From positions 1 to 44,696 of the IMG/VR virus record IMGVR_UViG_3300045120_000197: DNA of 44,696 bases, one strand, 5' to 3'. A model generated the notes under the pieces. The model did not search any database and had not been told where the DNA came from. It saw nothing but the letters and a program-made list of their open reading frames with translations. This document shows positions 4,190 to 29,107 of the stretch, in pieces. The first letter of the stretch is position 1; each line of letters begins with the position of its first letter. This DNA is from a virus. Made by a program: the position numbers and the translations under genes.

Positions 4190-4602
4190 GCTTGACTTAT
4201 TACGTCCGGTATCAATCGCAGCGTCGAAAGCCGGGACCGACGGCGAAGTCTCGCGCGAAACGAACTCGCGCCGAAGGTCCGGTCAAACGGGCCGTTCGTG
4301 CGGCGTGTGTGGAACGAGACGGCGATTGCCGAATCTGCGATTGGGAAAAGAACCCGTCAGATACTCACGAGGACGACCTGCCGATGCCGGACGAGATGTC
4401 CGCAGGCCGCTCTGAATGGGCGCACCTTGAACGCGGGAAGCGAGCGCGGACGCGCGGGATGAAGCCAGAACTCAGGCATTCGACATATTCCTCGGCCATG
4501 CTCTGCACGTTCCATCATCGCCTTTACGACGCTGGGCATCTGCGTATCGGCATCAGGTCAAGCCTCGGCGCCAATGGTCTATTGGACTGGACGACGCCAT
4601 GA
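4186..4602 (+). CDS. HNH-like endonuclease
   Basis: 138 residues, GTG start. After a basic N-terminus, the core shows VERDGDCRICDW, then SEWAHLERG, then MLCTFHHRLYDAGHLRI: the Cys pair, central His and terminal HH of an HNH (beta-beta-metal) nuclease. Small phage HNH proteins of this kind act as packaging-linked nickases or as homing nucleases. It is far from the terminase, so a homing or recombination role is as likely. Family call from motif; substrate unknown. Confidence 0.65.
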   Translation: MSLTYYVRYQSQRRKPGPTAKSRAKRTRAEGPVKRAVRAACVERDGDCRICDWEKNPSDTHEDDLPMPDEMSAGRSEWAHLERGKRARTRGMKPELRHSTYSSAMLCTFHHRLYDAGHLRIGIRSSLGANGLLDWTTP

Positions 4603-4700
4603 CACGGCCTGCCTTCATCGATCAGGCGCTCAGATTGTGGAGAGAATGGCGGACTCGGGATCGCTGGCATGGGATTCATTCGAGCTATTGGAGGTTCTGA
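4599..4700 (+). CDS. possible 33-residue basic peptide
   Basis: ATG 4599 overlaps the HNH stop, and the frame ends just before the strong ribosome site of the next gene. It is Arg/Trp-rich (LRLWREWRTRDRWHGIHSSYW). Position and overlap favour it, but the length leaves doubt. Confidence 0.4.
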   Translation: MTRPAFIDQALRLWREWRTRDRWHGIHSSYWRF

Positions 4701-4713
4701 AAAGGAGGCAGTG

Positions 4714-5139
4714 ATGGGTGAAGCATACGATCGAACTGGAGCATTTCTCGGGTCAGCCGAAGCGGCCACGAAACAGGACGTGCTGAAGAAGCTCATGGAC
4801 GCGCACGGCGACAAGGCGCACGAGATTCGCATTCGCACGTTAGAGGAACCGTCAGGCGCATCAGCCGAGATGCCGCGCTATCGGTGCCACAAAGAGGTAT
4901 GGGCGCTGAAGATTTCAGCCATCACATTCGATGCCTCAAAGGCCGCGATGGAAGGCCGCGAGACTGACGGCTCTGCGACCATTGTTCCAGCCGAAGACGG
5001 CTACGGCCCGTTCAAGGTGGACAGCGGCTATCTCCGTAAGCACAGCCCTCAGCCTGGCGGCTACTACGTCGTTTACAAGGACGGCTACAAGTCGTTCTCG
5101 CCGGCCGATGCCTTCGAGGAAGGGTATGCGCGGCTGTGA
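4714..5139 (+). CDS. conserved phage protein, 141 residues
   Basis: The start at ATG 4714 is set by a strong ribosome site (AAAGGAGG, 4701-4708). A central YRCHKEVWALKI segment and a C-terminal module (DGYGPFKVDSGYLRKH, then GGYYVVYKDGYKSFSPADAFEEGY) match a small family found in many unrelated phages, of unknown function. It overlaps the next gene by four bases. Confidence 0.65.
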   Translation: MGEAYDRTGAFLGSAEAATKQDVLKKLMDAHGDKAHEIRIRTLEEPSGASAEMPRYRCHKEVWALKISAITFDASKAAMEGRETDGSATIVPAEDGYGPFKVDSGYLRKHSPQPGGYYVVYKDGYKSFSPADAFEEGYARL

Positions 5140-5369
5140 AGATTAAGAACTTCAAGATCGGCGCGACTGGGCGTTTTCCCTATGGACGCGCCGCCGAGGA
5201 CGACGAAGGCGAACTACAGATCGCAATGGCGGCCGATCATGGAAACGCGATCGTGCGGCTGCAATTCGGAAAACCGATCGGCTGGCTGGGGCTGCCATCA
5301 GTGAACGCTCGTCAACTCGCGGCGCTGTTGATCGAGAAGGCTGACGAATTGGATCGGCGGAAGGCGTAG
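5136..5369 (+). CDS. conserved phage hypothetical protein, 77 residues
   Basis: GTG start overlapping the previous stop. The pattern FKIGATGRFP, EDDEGELQIAM, FGKPIGWLGLP and a final helix ARQLAALLIEKADEL is seen in many phage early regions. The function is not known. Confidence 0.65.
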   Translation: MKIKNFKIGATGRFPYGRAAEDDEGELQIAMAADHGNAIVRLQFGKPIGWLGLPSVNARQLAALLIEKADELDRRKA

Positions 5370-5380
5370 GACGCTTTTAG

Positions 5381-5737
5381 ATGATTCCAGAACCGAATAT
5401 CCCGCAAGAAATCGCGGATCGCCAAGGCCACCGAGACATCCTCGCCGCCTGGTTCAAACTGCACCCTTTAGAGGACATTGGGCCGGATGAACTGGAACGC
5501 CTTGTAGGCCGGAATTACCAGCAACGCATCTCCGATTGCCGGCTGGAACTCGGCATGACCCTCCAGAACCGTCCTAGGACCGTCCAGGATGGCGCTGGGA
5601 AGGTCAAACGGCTGTCGGGGGCCTACAGATACCTGCCGATGGGCGAGCCTCTAGGACGTGATTCTGGGCAGGTTGTGGCGGCTGGCTGGCCCGGGAAGCA
5701 TGGGCGGCCGTTTGAGGAAGAATTTAGGCTGCGATGA
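5381..5737 (+). CDS. helix-turn-helix protein, 118 residues
   Basis: Residues 18-60 (HRDILAAWFKLHPLEDIGPDELERLVGRNYQQRISDCRLELG) have the spacing of a winged helix-turn-helix. The RNYQQRISDCRLELGM helix resembles the recognition part of phage HTH proteins with a W/Y-QxRISDLRxELG motif. A loop-rich C-terminus follows. Likely DNA-binding, perhaps regulating early genes; target unknown. Confidence 0.55.
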   Translation: MIPEPNIPQEIADRQGHRDILAAWFKLHPLEDIGPDELERLVGRNYQQRISDCRLELGMTLQNRPRTVQDGAGKVKRLSGAYRYLPMGEPLGRDSGQVVAAGWPGKHGRPFEEEFRLR

Positions 5738-5934
5738 CTGTTCCCGCGTCCTCTCCCGATCCCCGCGTGCAGGCGCCGAAACCGCGGACCAGCCGCAAGA
5801 TGGACCCATGTATCCGCGCGTTGGACCGGTTCTCGCGGGTGCTCGAAGTTCAGAATCCGAGCGCCCAGCGTGCCGCGATCTTGTGGTTGGCTGATCGGTA
5901 TCTCGGGTTGAAGCCGCGGGATTGGTGGCGATGA
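5734..5934 (+). CDS. hypothetical protein, 66 residues
   Basis: Starts in an ATGA overlap. A Pro-rich start (PASSPDPRVQAPKP) precedes a helical half (CIRALDRFSRVLEVQNPSAQRAAILWLADRYL) similar to small phage proteins of that type. Its beginning shares an 18-base word with the next gene (5758-5775 and 5940-5957, both DPRVQA). Confidence 0.6.
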   Translation: MTVPASSPDPRVQAPKPRTSRKMDPCIRALDRFSRVLEVQNPSAQRAAILWLADRYLGLKPRDWWR

Positions 5935-6653
5935 TGACTGATCCCCGCGTGCAGGCGTTGATCGCGCAATGGCGAGAACGTGTCGCGACTTGTCGGCGTC
6001 TCGGAGAGACGACAGGGCGAGACGGTCAATTTGCGCTCTCGCGCTCGTGGGCTGAAGAAGCCGAGCATATATCCGACTGCGCCGACGAACTGGAAGCCTT
6101 GGCCCTCTCGGTGATCCCGGCGTCCAATTTAGTGGTCGGTGGGCGAATGGAGCGCAGTATCGCGGACTTCATCAGGGCGTGCGGCGTTCATCTGACCGAC
6201 GAGCAGGAAAAGATCGCGCCTGACACCGCGCTCATTGCCGTGTTGTGCGATGGCGTGCGGATGGCCCGTGAATATCTCGCGTATGTGGCCTCGGTGATCC
6301 CGTCGTCCCAACCGTTCACGGAGAACGAAACTAAGGACGTGCTGACCGCGCTCTATCAGGATGGCCATGTCGATCTTGTGCTCTGCGATCGTGTGGCGGC
6401 ACTCATGCGTGCGGCGGTCCCGGCGTCCGCAGAGGGAGAGGATACATTCGGCGCCTTCGACAAGTTGCGCGATCGTTTAGCGTTGTTGAGGTTGGCTGAG
6501 CGCGGGACTGATAACGGATGGATTGACGATGCGACAGTCGAGCAGTGCCGGTCGGACGTGCTGAAATGCGCGATTCGTCTCGTCCGTGACGTTGACGCCA
6601 AACTGGCGAGGTCTGCGGGCTCCGCGTCCCAGGACAGCAGAACGACGAAGTAA
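5931..6653 (+). CDS. hypothetical helical protein, 240 residues
   Basis: ATG 5931 overlaps the previous stop and is preferred over the upstream TTG. It is largely helical, with a first helical pair (ALIAQWRERVATCRRLGE ... WAEEAEHISDCADELEALAL) and two short PxS repeats (VIPASN, VIPSSQ, VPASAEG) marking three similar segments of about 70 residues. No catalytic motif is seen. 6654-6716, between this gene and the next, is non-coding and carries a small GC hairpin (6671-6683). Confidence 0.6.
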   Translation: MMTDPRVQALIAQWRERVATCRRLGETTGRDGQFALSRSWAEEAEHISDCADELEALALSVIPASNLVVGGRMERSIADFIRACGVHLTDEQEKIAPDTALIAVLCDGVRMAREYLAYVASVIPSSQPFTENETKDVLTALYQDGHVDLVLCDRVAALMRAAVPASAEGEDTFGAFDKLRDRLALLRLAERGTDNGWIDDATVEQCRSDVLKCAIRLVRDVDAKLARSAGSASQDSRTTK

Positions 6654-6715
6654 GACGATTTAGCGCGCGTAGCGCCTCCGGCGCGTCTGCGTCGGTTGCC
6701 CTACCGCATCGAAAG
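6648..6715 (+). repeat. left cassette border, copy 1
   Basis: Divergent repeat of 8126-8188. Shared words are AAGACGATT, CGCGCGT and GCCCTACCGCATC in the same order, placed just before a gene start in both copies. It looks like a homologous boundary rather than chance. Confidence 0.55.
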
Positions 6716-6716
6716 G

Positions 6717-7130
6717 ATGGGTGATTCGGTGATCGATGAAACGAACGACAAGCCAAAGATTTACGGTTTCGTCAACGGTGGAAGTCCGGGCTGGTATTCC
6801 GTCGAAGCCATCTCCGAGGACGGCGTGTTTCTCGCGAGTCACTGTTGCTCACATCCGTCCTACGGGCCGCACGACATCGGCGTCGAGAGCGATTGGAAGC
6901 ATGAGACCTACCGGAAGTATTACCCGGACGGTTTCGAGGTGATCTGGTGCAACGATGCGAAGGACGAACGGATCAAGGCGGCCTACGCAAAGCACCTCGC
7001 GCTCGGCAAGGACGAATATGCGGCTAAGGTCGCGTGTATGGGCTGGCCGTCGAAGGCCGACGAGTCTACACCGGCCGTCGATGCGGTAGGCGAGGCGTTG
7101 ACTGAACCCGTGGCTGACACCGCGCGCTAA
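6717..7130 (+). CDS. conserved phage protein, about 137 residues
   Basis: The start is uncertain between ATG 6717 and GTG 6729; the latter has AGGATGG at a better distance. The core (KIYGFVNGGSPGWYSVEAISEDGVFLASHCCSHP ... DIGVESDWKHETYRKYYPDGFEVIWC) is an alpha/beta domain found in several phages without known role. The tail (VDAVGEALTEPVADTAR) shares DNA sequence with the end of the gene at 8211. It sits between homologous borders. Confidence 0.6.
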   Translation: MGDSVIDETNDKPKIYGFVNGGSPGWYSVEAISEDGVFLASHCCSHPSYGPHDIGVESDWKHETYRKYYPDGFEVIWCNDAKDERIKAAYAKHLALGKDEYAAKVACMGWPSKADESTPAVDAVGEALTEPVADTAR

Positions 7131-9123: not shown

Positions 9124-9276
9124 ATGACTAACCAGGATGGCGGCGCCATCGAGATCGAACTGCGGCAGGAATGGTGGCTGAACCACGGCGTCAACTGCCA
9201 GCCCTACGGTGACGACGGTGAAATGCAGTGCTGCGCGAATGACCTCGCCGCCGCGTTGAAGGAGACACCGGAATGA
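9124..9276 (+). CDS. 50-residue hypothetical protein
   Basis: ATG 9124 preceded by a strong purine run (AAGGGGGAAGG). An acidic small protein with three Cys (NCQPYGDDGEMQCCANDL). Overlaps the following gene by four bases, so the two are probably translated together. Confidence 0.55.
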   Translation: MTNQDGGAIEIELRQEWWLNHGVNCQPYGDDGEMQCCANDLAAALKETPE

Positions 9277-9587
9277 GCGACGACCTCGCAATTTGTATCG
9301 TCTGTCACGCTGCTGTTCCAGAAGCACAGCAAGCCGAGCACTTGGCTTCAGCACATCCCGCACCGAAAGCGGGCTTCGTATTCCACTTCGATGCGCGGCG
9401 CTACCATACGTATAAACCGTCGATGATGGTCACGGAACTACTACTCCTTGTCGGTGCGACTCCGATGTATCCGCTGTTTCAGAAACGACTTAGCGGGAAC
9501 GGCGATGATGTATTCATTCCGCAAGGATGCGCCGTAGACATGACGCAGGACCCGTGGTTTTACGCGATTCCACCCGCAACTTTCTAA
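9273..9587 (+). CDS. C2H2 zinc finger fused to a ubiquitin-like (multiubiquitin-type) domain
   Basis: 104 residues. Residues 8-28 form a classical C2H2 finger (C8xxC11, H23xxxxH28). The rest, FHFDARRYHTYKP, MMVTELLLLVGATPMYPLFQK, DDVFIPQGCAVDM, then DPWFYAIPPATF, follows the order of the bacterial multiubiquitin beta-grasp domain: two strands, the helix with ELLxLxG, an acidic/Pro turn, a VDLT/VDMT strand and a final strand. Bacterial relatives occur beside E1/E2/JAB genes in ubiquitin-like conjugation and defence systems; none is present here. The C-terminus ends in PPATF without a Gly-Gly tail, so it may act as a mimic or adaptor rather than a conjugated tag. The family match is by eye; the role is inferred. 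Confidence 0.6.
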   Translation: MSDDLAICIVCHAAVPEAQQAEHLASAHPAPKAGFVFHFDARRYHTYKPSMMVTELLLLVGATPMYPLFQKRLSGNGDDVFIPQGCAVDMTQDPWFYAIPPATF

Positions 9588-12040: not shown

Positions 12041-12253
12041 ATGCCGAGCCACCAGGATCGCCGCGATCGGCTACCGCCCGATTATAGATTCGGCGATGCA
12101 CATGCGTTAGCCGTCATGGCGGACCTTCGGCGCGGCTGTCTTCATCTGCTCGCGATCGATGAGGGTGATGGGCCTTACTGCGCGAATTGCGGCATTCCTG
12201 TTCAGGCCGCAGGCCGAGTCAAATCAGGGCTCCGATATTCAGCGCAACGCTGA
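12041..12253 (+). CDS. small Cys-containing protein, 70 residues
   Basis: Directly precedes the terminase with a TGATG overlap. One CxxC pair (YCANCG) plus an upstream Cys/His segment (GCLHLLAID) could form a zinc knuckle. Basic and helical. Unknown. Confidence 0.5.
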   Translation: MPSHQDRRDRLPPDYRFGDAHALAVMADLRRGCLHLLAIDEGDGPYCANCGIPVQAAGRVKSGLRYSAQR

Positions 12254-13713
12254 TGCCTGAACTCGACTGGACCGACATGCCGATTCATCAGGCGATTAAG
12301 TCTGACTGGAAATCGCCAGAGCTATTGGTCGAAGGTAGCTTGAACTCGGCCAAAACGACGGTCACGCTCGATAAGGAAATCGACGCCGCGCTGAAATATC
12401 ACGGTATCCCCTTAGTGCTCTGCCGCTGGACAGAAGATGCCGTCGCGACAAAACTCCGCAAAGCGTTTGAGGATATTCTCGGTATCCGTGGCGTGCCATT
12501 TAGTTGGGATGCGAAACAAAAGCTTTACTCGCTCCCGAACGATTCCACGGCGACGATGTTCGGTTTGAAGGCGTCGAGTGAAGCGGAACTCTTCAGCAAG
12601 CTCCGCGGGATGCCGGCCTCGCGAATTCTCGTCGATCAGGCCGAAGAGATGAAACGCGCGGTCGCTGATGAACTCCGCGGGCGATTCCGCCCCGACATTA
12701 TCGCGACGACGATCCGCCGCACAAGCTTTCCGTTTCAGCTCACGCTCGTCGCGAACCCCTCCGGCGAAACCTTCTGGCTCTCTAAGCAGTTCCCGGTCGA
12801 TAATCACATCGTTGGGCGGAAGCTCTATTCGCTCTCCGTCTATGACAATAAGCATTTGCCGCAAGCCTCGATCGATAGCCTGCTGCGCACCTACGCCGTA
12901 GAGCATCCGAAGCACCAGACGATGATCCTCGGGAAACGAGGGCTCAACATCGACGGCGATCCCGTCTATGAGGGGATGTTTGATCGCGCGCTCCATGTCG
13001 TTGAGTTGATGCCGCGCCCGGATCTGCCGGTCCTGACCGGATTTGAAATGGGCCGACATAATCCCGTCTGGATCGCGGCGCAGCGCGGACATAACGGGCG
13101 GCTCGCCCTGCTCGGCGGCATCATGGGGAAGCAGATGATGCTAGAAGATTTTCTCCCCATTGTCCGCGATTTCCAGCAGGATTGGTTCGAGGGCGCGCGG
13201 ATTAAAGCCTGCACCTCGCCGATGGGCGAGACGGCGCATACCGCAGGCTCGCGGCAGACGTTACTGAATGTGCTGCGAGAATCCGGCATCAAACCGATCT
13301 GGCGCGAGAATGCGAACGCGCCCGATGTCCAACTCGCGATGATCGAAGCGATCGGTGGTCTGCTGCGGCGTCGGACGATCGCCAAGGAGGAGTCCTTCGC
13401 GATCAATGCGGCGAAGGATCGTTGGCTCGTGATCGTGGACGGTCAGCCGAAGCCCGTTCCGTTCATGTCGTTCGCATTCGAGGGCGGTTTTGTCTGGGAC
13501 GAGCACGCCGTGAGCGTGAGTAATAAATCCGTCCGCCAGCCGCGCGAAGACGATGAATATGCCAATGCGATGCATTGCTTGGAAAACATCGTCCTGAACT
13601 TTTGCGCGGGGAAACAGACCGATGCCGAGCGCGCATCGCGTCGAGCGGCGCAGCGCACGGCGGACGATCCCGCAGAAACGCGCGATCGCACGGCGATGGA
13701 TTGGGCACGCTGA
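12253..13713 (+). CDS. terL: terminase large subunit
   Basis: 486 residues. The packaging motor cuts and pumps DNA into the procapsid. The ATPase part shows a Walker A-like loop at 28-36 (GSLNSAKTT), a Walker B-like strand at 124-132 (RILVDQAEE) and a coupling TLVANPSG segment. The nuclease part begins near 262 (TGFEMGRHNP). Acidic positions usually kept as Asp differ: E265 replaces the first Asp, a CTSPMGE stretch stands where a DPSG-like motif is expected, and the final DDxxDAL-like motif reads DEYANAM with N438. Start chosen at ATG 12253 overlapping the previous TGA; an earlier TTG (12187) is less likely. The family is sure from order, motifs and context; nuclease competence needs testing. 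Confidence 0.85.
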   Translation: MPELDWTDMPIHQAIKSDWKSPELLVEGSLNSAKTTVTLDKEIDAALKYHGIPLVLCRWTEDAVATKLRKAFEDILGIRGVPFSWDAKQKLYSLPNDSTATMFGLKASSEAELFSKLRGMPASRILVDQAEEMKRAVADELRGRFRPDIIATTIRRTSFPFQLTLVANPSGETFWLSKQFPVDNHIVGRKLYSLSVYDNKHLPQASIDSLLRTYAVEHPKHQTMILGKRGLNIDGDPVYEGMFDRALHVVELMPRPDLPVLTGFEMGRHNPVWIAAQRGHNGRLALLGGIMGKQMMLEDFLPIVRDFQQDWFEGARIKACTSPMGETAHTAGSRQTLLNVLRESGIKPIWRENANAPDVQLAMIEAIGGLLRRRTIAKEESFAINAAKDRWLVIVDGQPKPVPFMSFAFEGGFVWDEHAVSVSNKSVRQPREDDEYANAMHCLENIVLNFCAGKQTDAERASRRAAQRTADDPAETRDRTAMDWAR

Positions 13714-19174: not shown

Positions 19175-19392
19175 TGCCGAAGTCAGTCCGCGGCGTCATG
19201 CGGGAATGGAAGTCAGGCCAGCTCCATAGCGGATCATCGACTGGGCCTGTCGTGAAAAATCAGCGCCAGGCCGTGGCGATCGCGCTCAGCGAACAGCGGC
19301 AGATGAAGCCAAGCCTCCGCGCGGCGCATGCCTCACATCCGAATGCTTCCCGCTTGGGAAAATATCTACACGGCTCGAAGAAAGTTAGATAG
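19174..19392 (+). CDS. DUF6496-like small basic protein
   Basis: 72 residues. The start MPKSVRGVMREWKSGQLHSG and VVKNQRQAVAIALSEQ follow the common small-protein pattern (MPKS..KVMxEFKxGxLHSG ... AIAIALSEA) found in bacteria and phages. It is basic and perhaps DNA-linked, but its role is unknown. It ends one base before the interrupted HNH gene. Confidence 0.65.
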   Translation: MPKSVRGVMREWKSGQLHSGSSTGPVVKNQRQAVAIALSEQRQMKPSLRAAHASHPNASRLGKYLHGSKKVR

Positions 19393-19643
19393 ATGCCCAC
19401 TGGCGTTTATTACCGTTCGGATGAAATGCGTGCCAATATGATCGCACGTGTTCAAACGCCAGAAGCTAAAGAGAAAGCAACGGCGGCGCGAAAAATAGCT
19501 CGGCCTAGAAAATCAGGCTATGTGTCGATGGGTCGTAGGGGCGAGAAATTCGATCTGGTCCATCGCATTCGCGCTGAAAAAGCATTAGGCCACCCACTTC
19601 CCATAGGCGCTGAGGTGCATCATCCAGATGAAGATAAGACTAA

Positions 19644-19651
19644 TCCGAACG
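19644..19651. repeat. 8-bp target-site duplication, left copy
   Basis: TCCGAACG, repeated exactly at 21738-21745. Eight bases is the usual duplication size for IS1595 elements. Confidence 0.9.
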
Positions 19652-19673
19652 GGTAATAATATAGTTGACGGGG
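19652..19673. repeat. IS left terminal inverted repeat
   Basis: Begins GGTAATAATATAGTTGAC. Matches the reverse complement of 21716-21737 at 19 of 22 positions. Confidence 0.85.
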
Positions 19674-19777
19674 AAGGACTGTCTATAGCAAACTCGCTTT
19701 TGACAGGCCGGTTGTTCGGATCTATCCCTCACGGTTTCGCGTCGATAGAGCTAGGAGTGTGCCTTTCTGTGGCGCTT

Positions 19778-20419
19778 CTAGCTTTTTCGCTTACCCTGCT
19801 CGTCTATCTCCATGTCGGTGCTGTATCCGACCTTCGTTTCAATCAGCAAATTATTCATCACATAAGTGAACGTGCCTTGAACGAGTATGCTCTGCGCTTT
19901 TGCGAGTGGATTGAATTTCCTCGTGAAGTGATTCCGTCGGCGTTTACCGAAGCGATCAATGTAATCCACATATCCGATAATCCAGAGCGTAAGCGGATTC
20001 TTTTGGTCGTAGATCGCGTCATAGCTGGCTTTCGGCACGGCAGGCAACCCCGGCTCGTCTGGGGTCCAATAGAGCGGAGCGTTCGGCATCAAGAACAGAT
20101 TTTGAACTTCCGTCGGCCTGATGTCTGGGAAGTCGTCCGGCAGTTCGTTCCCAACAAAGCGTTCAACCACGACGGCAACAACGTCCGCTGGCGTATGGCC
20201 GTGATTCGTAATGGCAACCTGAATGCGGATCGGTTTGTCCGCTTCAAACTCGATCCCTGGTTGGCCGTGGGACAGGTCAACATATGCTCGTTCGACGCGC
20301 TTCGTAGTGCTATGGATTCCCGCGTAGATGAGCACTTGGACTATCGCCATTCCGACTACGCCCATGGTCAAGGCGACCATCCACGTCTCGAAACGGATCC
20401 CGAATATCAGATTCTGCAT
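19778..20419 (-). CDS. IS passenger membrane protein
   Basis: 213 residues. One N-terminal transmembrane segment (MVALTMGVVGMAIVQVLIYAGI) precedes a soluble domain with immunoglobulin-like strands (IRIQVAITNHGHTPADVVAVVVERF; LWIIGYVDYIDRFGKRRRNHFTRKF). The same kind of protein is common as unexplained cargo in mobile elements. An in-frame stop lies nine codons upstream of the start. It shares the strand of the transposase. Function unknown. Confidence 0.7.
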   Translation of the reverse strand: MQNLIFGIRFETWMVALTMGVVGMAIVQVLIYAGIHSTTKRVERAYVDLSHGQPGIEFEADKPIRIQVAITNHGHTPADVVAVVVERFVGNELPDDFPDIRPTEVQNLFLMPNAPLYWTPDEPGLPAVPKASYDAIYDQKNPLTLWIIGYVDYIDRFGKRRRNHFTRKFNPLAKAQSILVQGTFTYVMNNLLIETKVGYSTDMEIDEQGKRKS

Positions 20420-20534
20420 AATCGTGGGGACTGGCTGATATTAGGCGTCATAGCTGTTTTCGTCGGGCTCGGCATTTATGTGTATGTAGAGTTTTGGCGA
20501 TAAATAGTTATGAGCACGCTAGAATGGGGGCGAC

Positions 20535-20696
20535 ATGGGCCGCACGTCGAAGGAATTTCAAGCGTTCGACTCCCTGATAGGGAAGCTGTTGACGGTGCCC
20601 AAGTCTACGATCCACGAACGGCACGCCGAACACAAAAAAAGAGCCGCGCTCAATCCCAAAAAGCGCGGCCCCAAGCCGAAGATTACGCAGCCTTAG
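20535..20696 (+). CDS. 53-residue basic protein carried by the IS
   Basis: ATG 20535 with GGGGGCG ahead of it. It reads GRTSKEFQAFDSLIGKLLTV then PKSTIHERHAEHKKRA and a basic tail (PKKRGPKPKITQP). Similar tiny proteins accompany IS1595-type transposases. Probably DNA-binding and possibly a regulator; not proven. It is convergent with the transposase, and its DNA contains the transposase terminator on the other strand. Confidence 0.65.
   Translation: MGRTSKEFQAFDSLIGKLLTVPKSTIHERHAEHKKRAALNPKKRGPKPKITQP
20634..20669 (-). terminator. rho-independent terminator of the transposase
   Basis: On the minus strand, a perfect 8-bp stem (GCCGCGCT / AGCGCGGC, 20643-20650 with 20662-20669, loop of 11) is followed by TC and seven T (20634-20640). 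It lies 57 bases past the transposase stop, inside the opposing 53-codon gene. Confidence 0.75.
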
Positions 20697-20725
20697 GCAT
20701 CGGCCCACGGCGCGGTATTCTCGCG

Positions 20726-21688
20726 TCAGTTTTGGCTGGGAACCCTCCCGGCCCCCAACAGGTCTTTGTAGGTCAGGCGGCGTCCGACGATGCCGGTAAT
20801 CGCCAGCGAGAAGCGATCCGCGTCCTGCATGTCGCGCCGATGGTTGAAGCGGAACGCCTGTTCATCCAGATACCGGAACAGGTGAAACGGCTCGACGCTG
20901 ACGTAGGTGCCGTTCAGCCCGCGCTTCAGCAGCGACCAGAAGTTTTCGCAGCCGTTCGTGTGGACCGTGCCATCAACATAGGCTTCGGCATGGTCGATCA
21001 CTTGGTGCGCGTAATCAGCGGTCAGGCCGGTATAGGACGAAAACGCATCGGTGTTGAGGGATGCGCCGCGCTCAACGTTCGCCTTCACCATGTCTTGAAC
21101 ATGCGAGCGTCGCAGCGTGTGAAGGACATGCAGCTTGACGCGGCTATTGGTCTTCGCGTGCCGTTCCAGCAAGCCCATGACGGCAATCTTCCCCGCGAAG
21201 CTGCGCCCCGGCTTCACGCCGATAGCCTTGCGCTTGCTGGCGTGCATGTTCCGCGCTTTGCCGCCGATGTAAGTCTCGTCAACCTCGACCTCCCCGGACA
21301 ACTTGCCGCCCGTCACGTCCTGCATCGCAAGCCGGATTCTGTGCAGCATGAACCACGCGGTTTTCTGCGTCACGCCAAGCGACCGCGCCACTTCGTGCGA
21401 GCTGACGCCGTTCTTGCAGTTGGCAATCATCCAGACTGTCGGCAACCACTTATCCAGACCGAGCGGGGAATCCTCAAAAATGGTGCCCGTCTTGAGCGAG
21501 AACTTCCGCTTGGGATGCTTGGACTTGCAGATCCATCCCATGCGAGACTTGTCGAAGTAGACGCCCTCAGAGCCGCAGGTCGGGCAGGTGACGCCATTGG
21601 GCCAGCGGCGGGCGACCAGATATTCAAGGCAGTTATCCGGCTCAGAGAAGAACTTGACGGCTTCGATCAACGTGCGCGGCGTGTCCAT
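20726..21688 (-). CDS. IS1595-family DDE transposase
   Basis: 320 residues, full length. An N-terminal zinc ribbon (CPTCG ... WICKSKHPKRKFSLKTGTIFED) is followed by a helix-turn-helix-like region (VSSHEVARSLGVTQKTAWFMLHRI) and the ISXO2-like catalytic domain: GEVEVDETYIGG (first Asp), SLNTDAFSSYTGL (second Asp), HTNGCENFWSLLKRGLNGTYVSV (third acidic/Asn site). It catalyses cut-and-paste or copy movement of the element. A promoter in the right end repeat drives it. The gene appears intact. Confidence 0.93.
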   Translation of the reverse strand: MDTPRTLIEAVKFFSEPDNCLEYLVARRWPNGVTCPTCGSEGVYFDKSRMGWICKSKHPKRKFSLKTGTIFEDSPLGLDKWLPTVWMIANCKNGVSSHEVARSLGVTQKTAWFMLHRIRLAMQDVTGGKLSGEVEVDETYIGGKARNMHASKRKAIGVKPGRSFAGKIAVMGLLERHAKTNSRVKLHVLHTLRRSHVQDMVKANVERGASLNTDAFSSYTGLTADYAHQVIDHAEAYVDGTVHTNGCENFWSLLKRGLNGTYVSVEPFHLFRYLDEQAFRFNHRRDMQDADRFSLAITGIVGRRLTYKDLLGAGRVPSQN

Positions 21689-21695
21689 AAACTGA

Positions 21696-21724
21696 ACTAT
21701 ACGCCTGCCCGTTTACCCTGTCAA
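21696..21724 (-). promoter_or_regulatory. transposase promoter inside the right IS end
   Basis: On the minus strand, TTGACA (21719-21724), a 17-base spacer and TATAGT (21696-21701, 5 of 6). The -35 is part of the terminal repeat. Seven bases separate the -10 from the ATG, so the message would be leaderless or nearly so. Confidence 0.7.
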
Positions 21725-21737
21725 GTATATTGTTACC
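21716..21737. repeat. IS right terminal inverted repeat
   Basis: Reverse complement begins GGTAACAATATACTTGACAG. Pairs with 19652-19673. Confidence 0.85.
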
Positions 21738-21745
21738 TCCGAACG
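21738..21745. repeat. 8-bp target-site duplication, right copy
   Basis: TCCGAACG, identical to 19644-19651. Confidence 0.9.
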
Positions 21746-21996
21746 CGAGATTAGTCATCTGCCAAGATTGCGCCTATCACTTCCTATTACATTTTAGGAA
21801 GAGAATTATCGATGCTGGTGGAAATCCTAATACCGAACGGGTCTGCCTTACTTGTAGGAAAGTAAAGCCGATAAGCGCATTCGGTAGGAGCAAGATCAGA
21901 AAGGCTGATGGATTGTCTTATCGGTGTCGCCCTTGTAAGGCCGATTCAGATCAGCGTTGTCTTGAAAAGAAAAAACTCCAAAAGGTCTGCTGATTT

Positions 21997-23016
21997 ATGA
22001 GCACAGAAGGCACGCACGACGAATCGGTTCAACCGGAACAGCCCGAAGCGCCGGCGACACTCGCCGAATTCCGCGAGCAGTTTCCCGCCGCGCCAGTCGA
22101 AGGCCAGCCGGCGCCAGAACCTGCCGCGGAAAAACTGCCGCGTCGCCGTGCGAAGAGTCATCAGGCCGATGCCGAAGACGTGCCAGAAATCGCGGCGCTG
22201 ACGAAGCAGCTTCGTGAAGCCGAAGACGCGATCAAAATCGAACGCAAAGATGGCGAATCGGATCGCGTGTTTCAGTTGCGCAAGCGCGCCGAGATTGCCA
22301 AACGCGCCGCGCAGCCTCCCGTCGTTGAGCGTCCCGCGCCAGCGGCACAGCCCGCCGCAGCCATCGCCGCGCCGCCGAGCGCATTCACCGAGAAGGAACC
22401 GACCATCGATCAGTTCGCCTCCGAAGCCGATCCCTATACCGCGTGGCAACGGGCGCTTGGCCGCTACGATCGCAAAAAGGAAGCCTTTGACGCCTCGCAG
22501 GAGACCGCGAAAGCGAGTTATCAGGCCCAAGAGCGCCGCTTCAACGAAGAAATCAACCAGGGCATTCAGGCCCATGCCGCCCGCGCCGTCGCCCTTGCGC
22601 AATCACGGCCCGATGTCAAAGCCCTCTTTGATGCCGAAGCCGCGAAGCCGCCACAGGATCAGATTCAATTGACGTTGGCTGTTCGTGGCGCGATCGAGTT
22701 TCACGAGCGCGGGCCGGAGATGGTGGTCGCCCTTCTGCAGAACCCCGAATTGGCCGACGAGCTTTTCCTCTTGACAACGGGACGCGCAGTAGGAGACCCT
22801 AGGACCGACTCACTCGTCGCCACTGTGCGGCGTCGGTTACTACAGCGGATCTCGGGCGCCGGTTCTGGATCGCCCGCTCCGCCTCGACCGTTTAAACCTG
22901 CACCTCGCCCGCCTAATCCAGAGCGGACTGTGCCACAGACGCCGCGTGAGTCGTCACCGACGGATGCGCCCGGTTCGCTCGCGGAACATCGACGCCAGTT
23001 CCCGACCCGACACTGA
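21997..23016 (+). CDS. scaffolding protein
   Basis: 339 residues, Glu/Ala/Pro/Gln-rich, lying between portal and coat as in P22. Acidic disordered N-terminus, a helical middle (EIAALTKQLREAEDAIKIERKDGESDRVFQLRKRAEIAKRAA; YDRKKEAFDASQETAKASYQAQERRFNEEINQGIQAHAARAVALA), then a folded HERGPEMVVALLQNPELADELF part, and a Pro-rich C-terminus. It would guide coat assembly and leave the prohead. The motif LAEFREQFP near residue 22 recurs at the very C-terminus as LAEHRRQFP, hinting at two coat- or portal-binding tags. Confidence 0.75.
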   Translation: MSTEGTHDESVQPEQPEAPATLAEFREQFPAAPVEGQPAPEPAAEKLPRRRAKSHQADAEDVPEIAALTKQLREAEDAIKIERKDGESDRVFQLRKRAEIAKRAAQPPVVERPAPAAQPAAAIAAPPSAFTEKEPTIDQFASEADPYTAWQRALGRYDRKKEAFDASQETAKASYQAQERRFNEEINQGIQAHAARAVALAQSRPDVKALFDAEAAKPPQDQIQLTLAVRGAIEFHERGPEMVVALLQNPELADELFLLTTGRAVGDPRTDSLVATVRRRLLQRISGAGSGSPAPPRPFKPAPRPPNPERTVPQTPRESSPTDAPGSLAEHRRQFPTRH

Positions 23017-23058: not shown

Positions 23059-24288
23059 GTGCCAGCAAATTTCATCATCACGCCGAATTGGGTGGCGACG
23101 GACCACGCCGATCAGTTCGCCCAATACATCCGCCTCGTCAACGAATTCGAGCGCAAGTATGAAGGCGCGTGGGCCGAGACGGGCGGCGCGAAAATCGGCT
23201 ACACCACGCAAGTCCGCCTCGTGCAGCGTGATGTGACCGTCGAAGGCCAAGCCCTCCAGATCCAGCCCATTCAGAATCAGACCGTTCCGATCACGATCAA
23301 TCATCAACTCCAGGTCGCGCACTCTTGGTCCTCAGCCGATGATCAGCTCGCGATCGAAGATGCGCGGCAATACAGCAAGTCCTCCGGCGCTTCGATGGCC
23401 GCGAAGTGGGACGTGATCGCCGGCACTGAAGTTTACAAGCAGGTGTATTTCCAGATCGGCTCGCCGGGTGTCGCGCTCTCCGCGGATCAGACGTGGCTGG
23501 ATGGTGTCGCGAAGCTGACGAACGTCGGCGTCCCTGACACGGATCTGGTCGCGATTCTCGACATGAAGACGCACAGCAAGTTGCTGGGCGCAAACATCGG
23601 CGCGTTCAACCCGCAGAGTCAGATCAGCGAATACTTCAAGACCGGCCAGTTCAATGCCGGTGCCCTCGGTGTGTCGCGGTGGAAGAAGGACAACCACATG
23701 CCGACGCATACCACGGGCACCTTCACGAGTTCCACGCCGCTGGTGAGCGGCTCGCTCCAGACCGGCTCAACGCTCGTCACGTCCGGCTGGGGCACCTATG
23801 CGTTCAAGGCGGGGGATACGTTCTACATCGCTGGCGTGAACGCGGTCGATCCGATCAGCTATGTGGATTCCGGCGATCAGCAGGCGTTCGTGCTGCAGTC
23901 GGACCTCTCGGGATCATCGACGGCGACCTTCACGATCTCGCCGGCCATCATCACAAGCGGCGCGCTCCAGACCGTGACCGCTTCGCCCGCCGCGAACGCC
24001 ACGATCAGCTTCGTTGGCTCCACAGGCGTCGTCAACGCCACAATGGCCGCGCAGACCTCCAAGCAGTCCCTGCTGTTCGATCCGGGCGCCTTCGCCTTCG
24101 TCATGGCCGACCTGCCGGCAAAGCTCGCGGGCGCGGTCGCCGGTCGGTGGAACTCCGGCGAGGACAAGATGTCCTTTAGGTATGTTGATCAGTATTCGAT
24201 CCAAACGGATCAACTGCCCCGTCGTATGGATAGCATCGGAGGCTGCGCATGCATCCTGCCGTATTTCGCTTTGCGCGCATGGAGTTGA
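23059..24288 (+). CDS. major capsid (coat) protein, P22-like
   Basis: 409 residues from GTG 23059, preceded by TGAGGA. Typical features are NWVATDHADQFAQYIRLVNEFERKYEG (N-arm), IGYTTQVRLVQRDVTVEGQALQIQPIQNQTVPITINHQ (E-loop and backbone strand), SKSSGASMAAKWDVIAGTEVYKQ (spine helix), and an ending FRYVDQYSIQTDQLPRRMDSIGG. The order fits the P22 coat family of the HK97 fold. A Ser/Thr-rich insert (about 215-330) may be the surface I-domain. It forms the icosahedral shell on the scaffold. Strong call from fold pattern and position. Confidence 0.85.
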   Translation: MPANFIITPNWVATDHADQFAQYIRLVNEFERKYEGAWAETGGAKIGYTTQVRLVQRDVTVEGQALQIQPIQNQTVPITINHQLQVAHSWSSADDQLAIEDARQYSKSSGASMAAKWDVIAGTEVYKQVYFQIGSPGVALSADQTWLDGVAKLTNVGVPDTDLVAILDMKTHSKLLGANIGAFNPQSQISEYFKTGQFNAGALGVSRWKKDNHMPTHTTGTFTSSTPLVSGSLQTGSTLVTSGWGTYAFKAGDTFYIAGVNAVDPISYVDSGDQQAFVLQSDLSGSSTATFTISPAIITSGALQTVTASPAANATISFVGSTGVVNATMAAQTSKQSLLFDPGAFAFVMADLPAKLAGAVAGRWNSGEDKMSFRYVDQYSIQTDQLPRRMDSIGGCACILPYFALRAWS

Positions 24289-24292
24289 AATC

Positions 24293-24931
24293 CTAATGCT
24301 TAGCAGCTTGAATCGCAGCGCAGTCATTCAACGGAATCGTGAGGGCATCTTCAATCGACAAGCCCTTGCGGAGCCGTGCGAAAAGACACGCTACGGTCAG
24401 ACCGTATTCGACGGCCCAATCGCTGATGCATTGTGTCTTTCCGAAAGCCAGCACATGCCGAGTGCTTCTGCGATTTCTCGATTGAACATGGCTCTCCTGC
24501 CACGAGCAATTGGCAGGTTCATATCCGATGTCATTGTCTCTCCGCTCTATCGAGTGATTGAACGATGGACGCGGACCCATGTCGGCGAGGAAATTAGCAA
24601 AAGATGTTCGCCAACGATCACACACCGTAATGCCGCGGCCTCCGTAAGACTTGAACGCGATATTATTGGGATTACTGCATCGGTCTTTCATGCCGTGCCA
24701 GATTCCATATTCAGGCTTGCGGCTACCATCGTGGCTCAGTGTCATCGCGCGCATACGTTCGCGTTTCCAGCATCCGCACGATCGAGTTTTGTTCAGATCA
24801 TGGACTGTGAGCGTTTTCAGCACTCCGCAGTCACAGCGGCAGACGAAAGCATGAGGACTTCGTTGTTTTCCTATTCCGGCAATGGCTTCAACGAGCGTCA
24901 AACGGCCGACTTTCGCTCCGGTGATGAGCAT
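24293..24931 (-). CDS. free-standing HNH homing-type endonuclease
   Basis: 212 residues, complete. It starts GAKVGRLTLVEAIAG, then CRCDCGVLKTLTVHDLNKTRSCGCWKRE (zinc part), YGIWHGMKDRCSNPNNIAFKSYGGRGITVCDRWRTSFANFLADMGPRP, then HSIERRDNDIGYEPANCSW, the HNH-like active site of a large phage nuclease family, and a C-terminal DNA-binding segment (ISDWAVEYGLTVACLFARLRKGLS ... EDALTIP). It lies antisense between the coat gene and the next head gene, four bases from the coat stop, a typical homing position beside a conserved gene. It has its own -10 box. Confidence 0.85.
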   Translation of the reverse strand: MLITGAKVGRLTLVEAIAGIGKQRSPHAFVCRCDCGVLKTLTVHDLNKTRSCGCWKRERMRAMTLSHDGSRKPEYGIWHGMKDRCSNPNNIAFKSYGGRGITVCDRWRTSFANFLADMGPRPSFNHSIERRDNDIGYEPANCSWQESHVQSRNRRSTRHVLAFGKTQCISDWAVEYGLTVACLFARLRKGLSIEDALTIPLNDCAAIQAAKH

Positions 24932-24936
24932 GTCTC

Positions 24937-24942
24937 ATTATA
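24937..24942 (-). promoter_or_regulatory. -10 box of the homing nuclease gene
   Basis: Perfect TATAAT on the minus strand, five bases before the ATG at 24931. No clear -35 hexamer at 16-18 bases (GCCGAA or CGCCGA there). Expression would be leaderless. Confidence 0.4.
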
Positions 24943-24984
24943 CCGGAAGATGATAAGTTTCGGCGTAATCGGAGCGAAATAATC

Positions 24985-26462: not shown

Positions 26463-27092
26463 ATGCCGAATATCACGGCTCCGGCGTTGACGTTCCCGGC
26501 GAAGTCCTTTCCTGCCCAGCAGGCGGGCGCGCCGTCTGGCGTCATCGGCGATCTGATCTTTTCGGAAGTGATGGGCCGTTATGCCACACTCGCCAAGGCG
26601 CAGAAGTTGTTCTACGCCTCAGTCTCAGTAACGGCGCCGGTCATCTACTCGACAGCGGCGCAGCTCGGCCCGATGATCTGGAATCGTCCCGGCTCCGGGC
26701 TCGATGCGCACATTCTCGCGGTGCTCGTCAGTCAGCCGTCTACGGCCTACACGGTGGCGGGATCAATCGGCTGGGGCGCGAACTTGCAACCGACCGCGCC
26801 AACGACACCGACCGCGATCACGCCGACGAACTGCTATGCGGGCGGCCCGGCCTCTGGGATGGGCGCCGTCAATTCCGTCGGCACCGTCCTCGTATTGCCC
26901 GTGCCGACGTTTCTCCCGCTGATTGCGGTGAACACGGGCGCGATCAGCGTGACGGCAATTGCCACAAGCTGGATGGACGTCGGCGGGAGCGTGATTGTCG
27001 GTCCTGGCACCGTGGGGTATGTCTGCGGCTCGGCCACGCTCTCGACCGGCGTGGCGATCATCGGTTTGGTGTGGGCGGAACTGCCCGCGTAA
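26463..27092 (+). CDS. structural paralogue 1 of 4, 209 residues
   Basis: ATG with TTCAGGAG at 26449-26456. First of four tandem genes sharing MPNITAP[AT]L.FP, GPM[IL]WNR, AGG, a PVPTF/TPKFWPL segment and VGPG..GYVCGSATL..GV endings. Beta-rich, low in charge, with no catalytic signature: a virion surface, decoration or fibre-like protein. It resembles paralogue 4 in ALTFPAKSFPAQQAGAP and APVIYSTAAQLGPM, and paralogue 2 in YATLAKAQKLFYAS. Confidence 0.7.
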   Translation: MPNITAPALTFPAKSFPAQQAGAPSGVIGDLIFSEVMGRYATLAKAQKLFYASVSVTAPVIYSTAAQLGPMIWNRPGSGLDAHILAVLVSQPSTAYTVAGSIGWGANLQPTAPTTPTAITPTNCYAGGPASGMGAVNSVGTVLVLPVPTFLPLIAVNTGAISVTAIATSWMDVGGSVIVGPGTVGYVCGSATLSTGVAIIGLVWAELPA

Positions 27093-27107
27093 CTTGGAGT
27101 CCTGCAC

Positions 27108-27740
27108 ATGCCCAACATCACCGCTCCCACACTCGCCTTCCCCTCGCGCTCCTTCCCCGGCGCCCAAGCGGGCGTGCCGGCCGGCATCGTCGGCGAACTC
27201 GTGTTCTCCGAAGTCCTCGGCAAATATGCGACCTTGGCGAAGGCGCAGAAGCTGTTCTACGCCAGCATCACCTGGGGAACGGCTCCGGCTTCATTCCTGA
27301 CCGCGGCGCAATTCGGCCCCGTGCTCTGGAATCGTCCCGGTTCAAACATCGACGCCTACGTTGTCGCGATTGGTATCAGCAACCTGACGACGGCGAATAC
27401 CGGCGGCGGCGCGATCGGCTGGGCGTCCAACGTTCAGGTGGATGCGCCGACGACTCCGACCGCGATCGTGGCGTGGAATGCCTATGCCGGCGGCGGCCCG
27501 TCGCAGCTCGGCGGTGTCTTCAGCACGGCGACTGTCGGCATTTTGCCCACGCCGAAGTTCTGGCCGCTCACGGCGCTGACACAGGGCGCGATCACGATCA
27601 ATGCGTTGTCTCAGAACTGGATCGACATCAACGGCGCGCTCGTCGTCGGTCCTGGCACTGTGGGTTACGTCTGCGGCTCGGCTGTGCTGACCGCGACCGT
27701 TTCGACCGCGACGATTGTCTGGGCGGAACTTTCGACCTAG
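27108..27740 (+). CDS. structural paralogue 2 of 4, 210 residues
   Basis: 15 bases after paralogue 1, with TTGGAG as ribosome site. Shares TLAKAQKLFYAS with copy 1 but diverges where copies 1 and 4 agree (TWGTAPASFLTAAQFGPVLWNRPGSNIDAYVVAIG). Ends VVGPGTVGYVCGSAVLTATVS. Role as for copy 1. Confidence 0.7.
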   Translation: MPNITAPTLAFPSRSFPGAQAGVPAGIVGELVFSEVLGKYATLAKAQKLFYASITWGTAPASFLTAAQFGPVLWNRPGSNIDAYVVAIGISNLTTANTGGGAIGWASNVQVDAPTTPTAIVAWNAYAGGGPSQLGGVFSTATVGILPTPKFWPLTALTQGAITINALSQNWIDINGALVVGPGTVGYVCGSAVLTATVSTATIVWAELST

Positions 27741-27769
27741 CGGCAGGGTCTCGCTGACGCTGCGCGGTG

Positions 27770-27790
27770 GACCGGCCGACCGACCACTAC
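27770..27790 (+). repeat. leader repeat of the paralogue array, copy 2
   Basis: Partner of 26414-26434, in the 83-base gap before paralogue 3. Confidence 0.75.
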
Positions 27791-27823
27791 CGCGCCTAAC
27801 TTGAGACTTCAGGAGCTTGCATC

Positions 27824-28459
27824 ATGCCGAACATTACCGCTCCGGCGTTATCGTTCCCGGCTCGGGCCTTCCCGGTCCAACAGGCCGGCGCGCCGGTTGG
27901 TGTCGTGGGTGAGCTGGGCCTTTCGGCTCTGCTCGGGAAGTATTCGACGCTCGTCAAATCGCAGAAGGTGTTCTACACGACCTGTATCGTGACGGCGCCG
28001 GTCATCTACACCTCCGCCTCGCAGATCGGGCCGGTGCTCTGGAACAAGCCGGCCTCCGGCATCGATGCTCACCTGCTCGGCTTCAGCATCGGATCGCCCA
28101 CGACCGCCACGTCTGTCGCGGGTTCGTGGGGGCTCGTGATGAACGTGCAGTCCACCCAGCCAACCGCGACGATCACGAACCTGCCGGTGCAGAACGCCTA
28201 TGCGGGCGGTGGACCTTCGCAGCTCGCGGGTGTGCTGACAACGACTGGCGCGGTCGGGATTCTCCCGACGCCCGTGTTCATTCCGCTCATCGGCGTCAAT
28301 ACCGGCGCGATCACGACTCAGGTCATCGGCGGGGGCTACGTCGATCTCGGTGGCATGTTCATCGTCGGCCCCGGCAATATGGCCTGCGCGAGCGTCTCGG
28401 CGACCCTGACCTCTGGCGTGTTCACCGTCGGCCTGCTGTGGGCTGAGCTTCCCGTCTAA
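27824..28459 (+). CDS. structural paralogue 3 of 4, 211 residues
   Basis: Preceded by TTCAGGAG (27808-27815). Shares GKYSTLVKSQKVFY and SIGSPTTATSVAGS with copy 4. The AGGGPSQLAGV loop is shared with copy 2. Ending GPGNMACASVSATLTSGVF differs from the GYVC form of the other three. Mosaic pattern suggests recombination within the array. Confidence 0.7.
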   Translation: MPNITAPALSFPARAFPVQQAGAPVGVVGELGLSALLGKYSTLVKSQKVFYTTCIVTAPVIYTSASQIGPVLWNKPASGIDAHLLGFSIGSPTTATSVAGSWGLVMNVQSTQPTATITNLPVQNAYAGGGPSQLAGVLTTTGAVGILPTPVFIPLIGVNTGAITTQVIGGGYVDLGGMFIVGPGNMACASVSATLTSGVFTVGLLWAELPV

Positions 28460-28468
28460 AGGGCCATC

Positions 28469-29107
28469 ATGCCAAACATCACGGCTCCCGCCCTCACGTT
28501 CCCGTCGCGGTCGTTTCCGGCGCAACAGGCCGGAGCCCCGACGGGTGTCGTCGGCGAACTCAGCATGTCGCAGTTCGTCGGCAAATACGGCACGCTCGTC
28601 AAATCGCAGCGGGTGTTCTATACCTCCGCGATCGTGACGGCGCCGGTCATCTACTCCACCGCGGCACAGCTCGGGCCGATGCTCTGGAATCGCACGGGTT
28701 CCGGGTTTGATGCGCATGTCCTCGCCATCAGCATCGGCGCGCCGACGACGGCGACCTCCGTCGCGGGTTCGCTCGGCTGGGCCTCCAACGTCCAGCCAGC
28801 CGCCCCAACATCGCCTGGCACCGCGCTCGTGGCCGTGAATGCCTACGCTGGCGGCCCCACATCCGGGCTCGGGTTCATCGGATCGACCGGCACGGTCATC
28901 ATTTTGCCGGTCCCGACGTTCACGCCGTTGTTCCCGATCAATACCGCGACGGCCGGCACGGCGATGTCCGCGCTCCAAGTCAGCAATATCGATACGAGCG
29001 GGATGTTCGTGGTCGGTCCTGGAAACGTCGGCTACGTGTGCGCCTCAGCCACGCTGACCTCGGGCGTCATGACCATCGGCATCATGTGGGCCGAGATTCC
29101 GACGTAA
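28469..29107 (+). CDS. structural paralogue 4 of 4, 212 residues
   Basis: Nine bases after copy 3. Shares TLVKSQRVFYTS with copy 3 and APVIYSTAAQLGPM with copy 1. Ends VVGPGNVGYVCASATLTSGVM. Same presumed virion role. Confidence 0.7.
   Translation: MPNITAPALTFPSRSFPAQQAGAPTGVVGELSMSQFVGKYGTLVKSQRVFYTSAIVTAPVIYSTAAQLGPMLWNRTGSGFDAHVLAISIGAPTTATSVAGSLGWASNVQPAAPTSPGTALVAVNAYAGGPTSGLGFIGSTGTVIILPVPTFTPLFPINTATAGTAMSALQVSNIDTSGMFVVGPGNVGYVCASATLTSGVMTIGIMWAEIPT

Follow-up and report, generated by a model that had tools for sequence, protein, structure and literature searches.

A phage-borne zinc finger joined to a bacterial multiubiquitin-type domain without the acceptor glycine: a candidate decoy of host ubiquitin-like conjugation

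Why would a phage carry a ubiquitin-like (Ubl) domain that is joined to a zinc finger and stops short of the glycine by which its bacterial relatives end? The question is raised by P0001, a 104-aa protein encoded at positions 9273-9587 on the plus strand of the window, a complete virus record in IMG/VR that is 44,696 bases long. The window carries a phage portal protein, a major head protein, a head closure protein, an endolysin and a Holliday junction resolvase, and the ORF at 12187-13713 is a putative large terminase because its single match among phage records is annotated as such. The ORF at 9273-9587 is a real gene, with the following features.

9259-9264, plus strand: ribosome-binding site AAGGAG of the finger-Ubl gene, 8 nt 5' of the ATG (from the sequence)
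9273-9587, plus strand: finger-Ubl gene, 104 aa and a TAA stop (ORF, translation and homologues in four other phages)
9294-9356, plus strand: C2H2 zinc finger from C8 to H28, C-x2-C-x11-H-x4-H (ligands invariant in five phages; β-β-α in the model)
9375-9566, plus strand: predicted ubiquitin-like β-grasp domain, residues 35-98 (39.7 bits with a bacterial Ubl profile; model pLDDT 90 overall; Foldseek matches to multi-ubiquitin/BubA)
9570-9584, plus strand: C-terminal tail PPATF, residues 100-104 (alignments; it stops where every aligned bacterial relative has a glycine)

The start of the gene overlaps the preceding ORF as ATGA, and the next ORF begins 10 nt downstream. Together with the ribosome-binding site, this spacing places the gene within a series of small genes that precede the terminase; it lies ~2.6 kb upstream of the terminase ORF and adjoins the resolvase region. 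The only host clue in the window, one tRNA-Ala, gave no host link. Elsewhere in the window, four tandem paralogous genes of ~210 aa each, with mutual identities of 51-61%, occupy 26463-29107. Relative to the related phage L002, the window has ~2.4 kb of additional DNA at 19372-22033, downstream of the portal gene, which contains a minus-strand transposase-like ORF (20726-21688). The segment at 24285-24979, immediately 3' of the major head gene, likewise has no counterpart in L002, where the flanking DNA is contiguous, and includes a minus-strand HNH-like ORF (24293-24931).

Queried directly, P0001 had no match in Pfam, PHROGs, PADLOC, NCBIfam, PDB sequences or plasmid records, and direct searches of viral and genome contigs returned nothing usable. 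Its matches among phage records (cyanophage CobS, best E 0.05) were not significant and were dismissed. At the gathering score of the Multi_ubiq family, PF14452, P0001 gave no match and its phage homologue L058 scored 13.6 bits, under the cut-off of 24.5; the bacterial operon Ubls themselves pass with 25-49 bits. Since the direct libraries were silent, the relationship was established through intermediate sequences. The multi-ubiquitin bait used to query plasmids was a hand-written consensus, which also seeded the first plasmid profile; the main conclusions rest on fetched sequences and not on this bait. Real multiubiquitin proteins were retrieved from plasmids, and one from Deinococcus ends in HFYTVPPATFGG, which is the end of P0001 plus glycines. 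A scan with the tail motif found the viral contig L019. Its Ubl clears the cut-off of PF14452 at 28.8 bits and matches P0001 with E=2.7e-7.

Because L019 had been picked by its tail, the comparison was redone using a profile built from 21 bacterial operon Ubls alone. P0001 scored 39.7 bits with this profile (P=3e-14), compared to 7.5 bits for the best of 5,000 shuffles, and still reached 19.5 bits (P=6e-8) after removal of its last 12 residues, the motif end. Over 1,743 six-frame ORFs, only other Ubl proteins scored above P0001. In the reverse search, a profile of the five phage proteins described below identified exactly one locus per genome in each of ten bacterial genomes, chosen as operon carriers, with E values of 2e-8 to 7e-17. 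The tail motif alone was rejected as evidence, since a looser scan of viral contigs with it gave 25 chance loci, none of which were relatives by profile. We regard it as near certain that the second half of P0001 is homologous to the Multi_ubiq-type Ubls of bacterial operons.

To obtain a usable model of the fold, relatives were needed: AlphaFold2 on the single sequence reached a pLDDT of 37, and with a 28-sequence alignment it reached 90.3. The model has a β-β-α finger (residues 5-27) followed by a β-grasp (residues 35-98). The nine best PDB matches of the model in Foldseek were all bacterial multi-ubiquitin (BubA-type) proteins, among them the BubA chain of the Citrobacter BubCD-BubA complex (TMt 0.78, rmsd 1.8), and a Foldseek search of the viral library returned nothing. 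Bacterial Ubls make up most of the alignment, so the model cannot count as separate evidence for homology; what it does show is that the sequence of P0001 fits a multi-ubiquitin β-grasp fold. A reading of this locus made earlier from the sequence alone (the sequence-only reading) had put a multiubiquitin-type β-grasp directly after the finger and had named a profile search and an AlphaFold model as the places where this assignment could fail. The 21-Ubl profile returned a β-grasp match and the model a β-grasp rather than another fold, in agreement with the homologues.

Scans of 2.9 million viral contigs identified four further phages with the finger-Ubl fusion, L057, L058, L063 and L064; L059 carries the same protein as L058. 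The protein had been taken for a lone phage copy, which it is not: the sequences place the finger-Ubl genes in a phage family with members in at least five phages. The finger ligands had been assigned correctly to C8, C11, H23 and H28, and all four are kept in every one of the five proteins. The segment HLR[TV]NH[LF]GPH is conserved across the four close members. The finger is thus under constraint, which suggests a second binding partner. Against PDB sequences, it scores best with ordinary C2H2 fingers of the DNA-binding kind. Identity with the ubiquitin-binding finger UBZ (zf_UBZ) was considered on account of a Cys/His spacing that is similar by eye, and was rejected, as the profile matched weakly and only for L057 (E=0.12).

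An extra scan based on the finger region added no phages, and the phage profile, run on 297, 398 and 369 genomes sampled from three bacterial groups, detected no finger-Ubl gene; its few matches there were loci already known and one operon Ubl, L106. A finger-less relative, L055, has the tail PPATMYRGNEG, with Y as the residue after PATM. It lies on a 4.5-kb contig (1-4554) in an Acidobacteria MAG, with a phage-type DNA methyltransferase, and the contig looks like phage DNA. The neighbours of the finger-Ubl genes that were identified are helicases, methyltransferases, an integrase and an exonuclease, and not virion genes; inspection of the ORF lists by eye revealed no conserved partner gene. 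As far as the records reach, the gene is missing from phages with a terminase 50-87% identical to that of the window, and is therefore accessory. In a tree of the Ubl halves, the phage finger-Ubls cluster with L055 (98/100); the cluster sits within the operon Ubls at the end of a long stem, and its exact attachment point is uncertain on the 81 columns used. The sequences would allow the five finger proteins to have arisen once (AU p 0.485 for the tree that keeps them together). None of the libraries searched contained the finger-Ubl architecture, and the open-access literature covered gave no paper on such a fusion; the main Bil and Bub papers fall outside that set, so that a prior mention is possible. 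The phage protein family is new; the Ubl domain family was already known.

The bacterial relatives were examined in a scan of a genome collection, which gave 28 loci. The scan pattern stopped at PPAT, so the glycine was not selected for. An E2 and/or ThiF was detected near the Ubl in 27 of these, the exception being L055. L031, whose operon was annotated in detail, encodes in turn a Ubl (Multi_ubiq, 45 bits), an E2 (Prok-E2_E), a JAB-ThiF fusion, a TCAD9/APH protein and DUF6527; most of the remaining operon loci gave a DUF6527 match too. The protein with TCAD9 and APH (phosphotransferase-like) matches lies between E1 and DUF6527 at 6980-8569 in L031 and at 7016-8500 in L033. L106 is a triple-Ubl relative that ends in RFYSLPPATFG and adjoins E2 and ThiF, features that tie the PPATFG subfamily to the classical multiubiquitin proteins.

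The viral contig L019 has a Ubl of another kind at 12092-12703: it keeps PPATFG (PPATFGAK) and comes after a long N-terminal region whose composition resembles that of a coiled coil. An ATGA-overlapping frame of 15 codons follows, similar to the start of an operon E2 (MTPIELQLQVLQMIK vs MTPVEQQFETLKTLS in L037). L019 is a capture separate from the finger-Ubls, in which a phage seems to have taken up a truncated Bub-type host operon. The same contig has, at 4456-7044, a terminase ORF with a putative intein that by eye starts at CLTADTLIQTWGGKISIGELY and ends at HNYYTGGLINHN.

P0001 ends in WFYAIPPATF with TAA directly after it. The residue that follows PPATF is G in 21/21 aligned bacterial Ubls, and no glycine follows PAT[F/M] in any of the five phage finger-Ubls (end of protein, L, F, W and L). 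The absence of a Gly-Gly tail had been pointed out in the sequence-only reading; the C-terminal glycine is indeed absent, but the nearest relatives themselves end in a single glycine, as PPATFG plus 0-4 residues. L057 ends in PPATMLHS and has no tail glycine. L064 ends in PPATMLG, and glycines occur later in L058 and L055, which means that processing may still be feasible for some members. The Ubl core of the phage members has diverged, with 4-14 of 23 bacterial consensus positions retained, and in P0001, L057 and L058 the tail is kept more strongly than the core. These three were found partly through the tail, and L063 keeps 4/10 tail positions vs 4/23 in the core and L064 6/10 vs 14/23, so the argument for selective retention is modest. 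L063 and L064 were found via patterns outside the tail, yet both have PATM.

The conjugation enzymes had also been reported as lacking, and this holds. Neither the window nor six other virus records yielded ThiF, Prok-E2_E or DUF6527, with two bacterial control genomes positive for each; since virus records may be fragments, the absence applies to the DNA in those records. A tblastn search of the window gave no JAB-ThiF match. P0001 has one Ubl and no tandem Ubl repeats; single-Ubl bacterial members exist too.

What such a protein does can be approached through its tail, which in the Ubl family serves for recognition by processing and activating enzymes. Loss of the glycine while the PAT[F/M] end stays is a pattern that a competitive decoy for E1 or the maturation protease could show. 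We consider it a real possibility, and the reading that we prefer, that P0001 is a conjugation-dead BubA-type Ubl which phages have captured and which serves them as a decoy or inhibits host Ubl conjugation by competition. More tentatively, phages may have taken a host Ubl tag, lost its attachment glycine and added a finger, giving a dominant-negative inhibitor of Bub-type conjugation. The finger-Ubl protein would be made early in infection, as we assume from its gene neighbours, and its Ubl part would dock on the host E1, E2 or maturation protease via the retained Ubl face and tail. With the acceptor glycine absent, the phage Ubl would be neither adenylated nor transferred; it would compete with the host Ubl, and conjugation would be blocked. 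The finger may provide a second contact, with a host enzyme, a phage protein or nucleic acid, that raises the affinity of the decoy or localises it.

The main alternative, which we think rather unlikely, is that the bacterial Ubl fold has been exapted with no link to conjugation and, together with the finger, now binds nucleic acid or protein to regulate early phage functions. The DNA-binding fingers among the PDB matches would fit such a regulator, as would the loss of the glycine and the divergence of the core, but the PAT[F/M] end is kept in 5/5 members, two of which were found without using the tail. An adaptor appears less probable again: the Ubl would bind host conjugation enzymes or Ubl assemblies, and the finger would recruit a protein or DNA, redirecting the system towards another target or location to the benefit of the phage. 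The constrained finger, with its four ligands and the conserved segment of the four close members, argues for this, and a finger is superfluous for a simple decoy; the lack of a conserved partner gene beside the finger-Ubl gene in the ORF lists argues against it. A decoy or adaptor function is in keeping with the loss of the glycine from a retained tail, and also with the accessory distribution, the early-type neighbours and the phylogeny.

It is highly improbable that P0001 is a working tag, a phage-supplied modifier that host enzymes conjugate through another residue or after trimming. The terminal glycine of L064 and the later glycines of L058 and L055 would allow it, but P0001 stops at PPATF and L057 has no tail glycine at all. 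A chance likeness in an unrelated small ORF has next to no probability left. The failure of P0001 itself to match Pfam, PHROGs, PADLOC or PDB sequences would fit chance, as would the 25 unrelated viral loci with the tail motif, but the profile, homologue, tree and structure results refute it, including the significance that persists without the motif end.

If P0001 is a decoy, the finding would matter in several ways. We know of no phage counter-defence protein that imitates a bacterial ubiquitin-like tag, and P0001 would to our knowledge be the first such mimic. An arms race could leave behind just such an imitation of a tag, one that cannot be attached, and a true decoy would be indirect evidence that Bub-type operons act against phages. 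The phage family offers a cheap and specific test, namely whether its members bind or block the host E1, E2 or DUF6527. Should inhibition be found, the proteins would be a ready-made tool for dissecting the pathway and a case of natural viral ubiquitin mimicry in bacteria. Phage protection by Bub operons had not been shown (PMC13373217), so the decoy reading is a prediction that goes beyond that paper. The tags of Bil systems become attached to the phage tail fibre (PMC12948488).

Among known systems, the closest are the BubA/multiubiquitin proteins (PF14452), above all the single-Ubl PPATFG subfamily (L028-L054): profile, predicted fold and tail motif all point to the same Ubl domain in P0001. 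In contrast to BubA, P0001 is phage-borne, has an extra zinc finger and one Ubl, lacks the C-terminal glycine and has no adjoining E2, E1 or DUF6527. BilA of the Bil (bacterial ISG15-like) antiphage systems, compared here by description rather than by sequence, likewise belongs to the bacterial Ubl tags and is used with an E1, an E2 and a JAB protease; it differs in having two Ubl domains and a reactive C-terminal glycine, in being encoded in an operon and in serving as a host defence factor (PMC11354881; PMC12948488). The phage TAPI tail-assembly protein has, like P0001, a phage-encoded Ubl domain, but is related to ThiS/MoaD, keeps its glycine and lacks a finger, and its gene lies among tail genes together with one for a JAB protein (PMC1779556). 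The P0001 gene lies near the terminase and resolvase and not, as TAPI genes do, among tail genes beside a JAB/NlpC protein. The likeness of its finger to ubiquitin-binding zinc fingers (UBZ) is one of Cys/His spacing seen by eye, with a profile match that is not significant. Like the phage counter-defence proteins that imitate host components, P0001 is small and accessory and resembles a component of a host system, and it may share their function.
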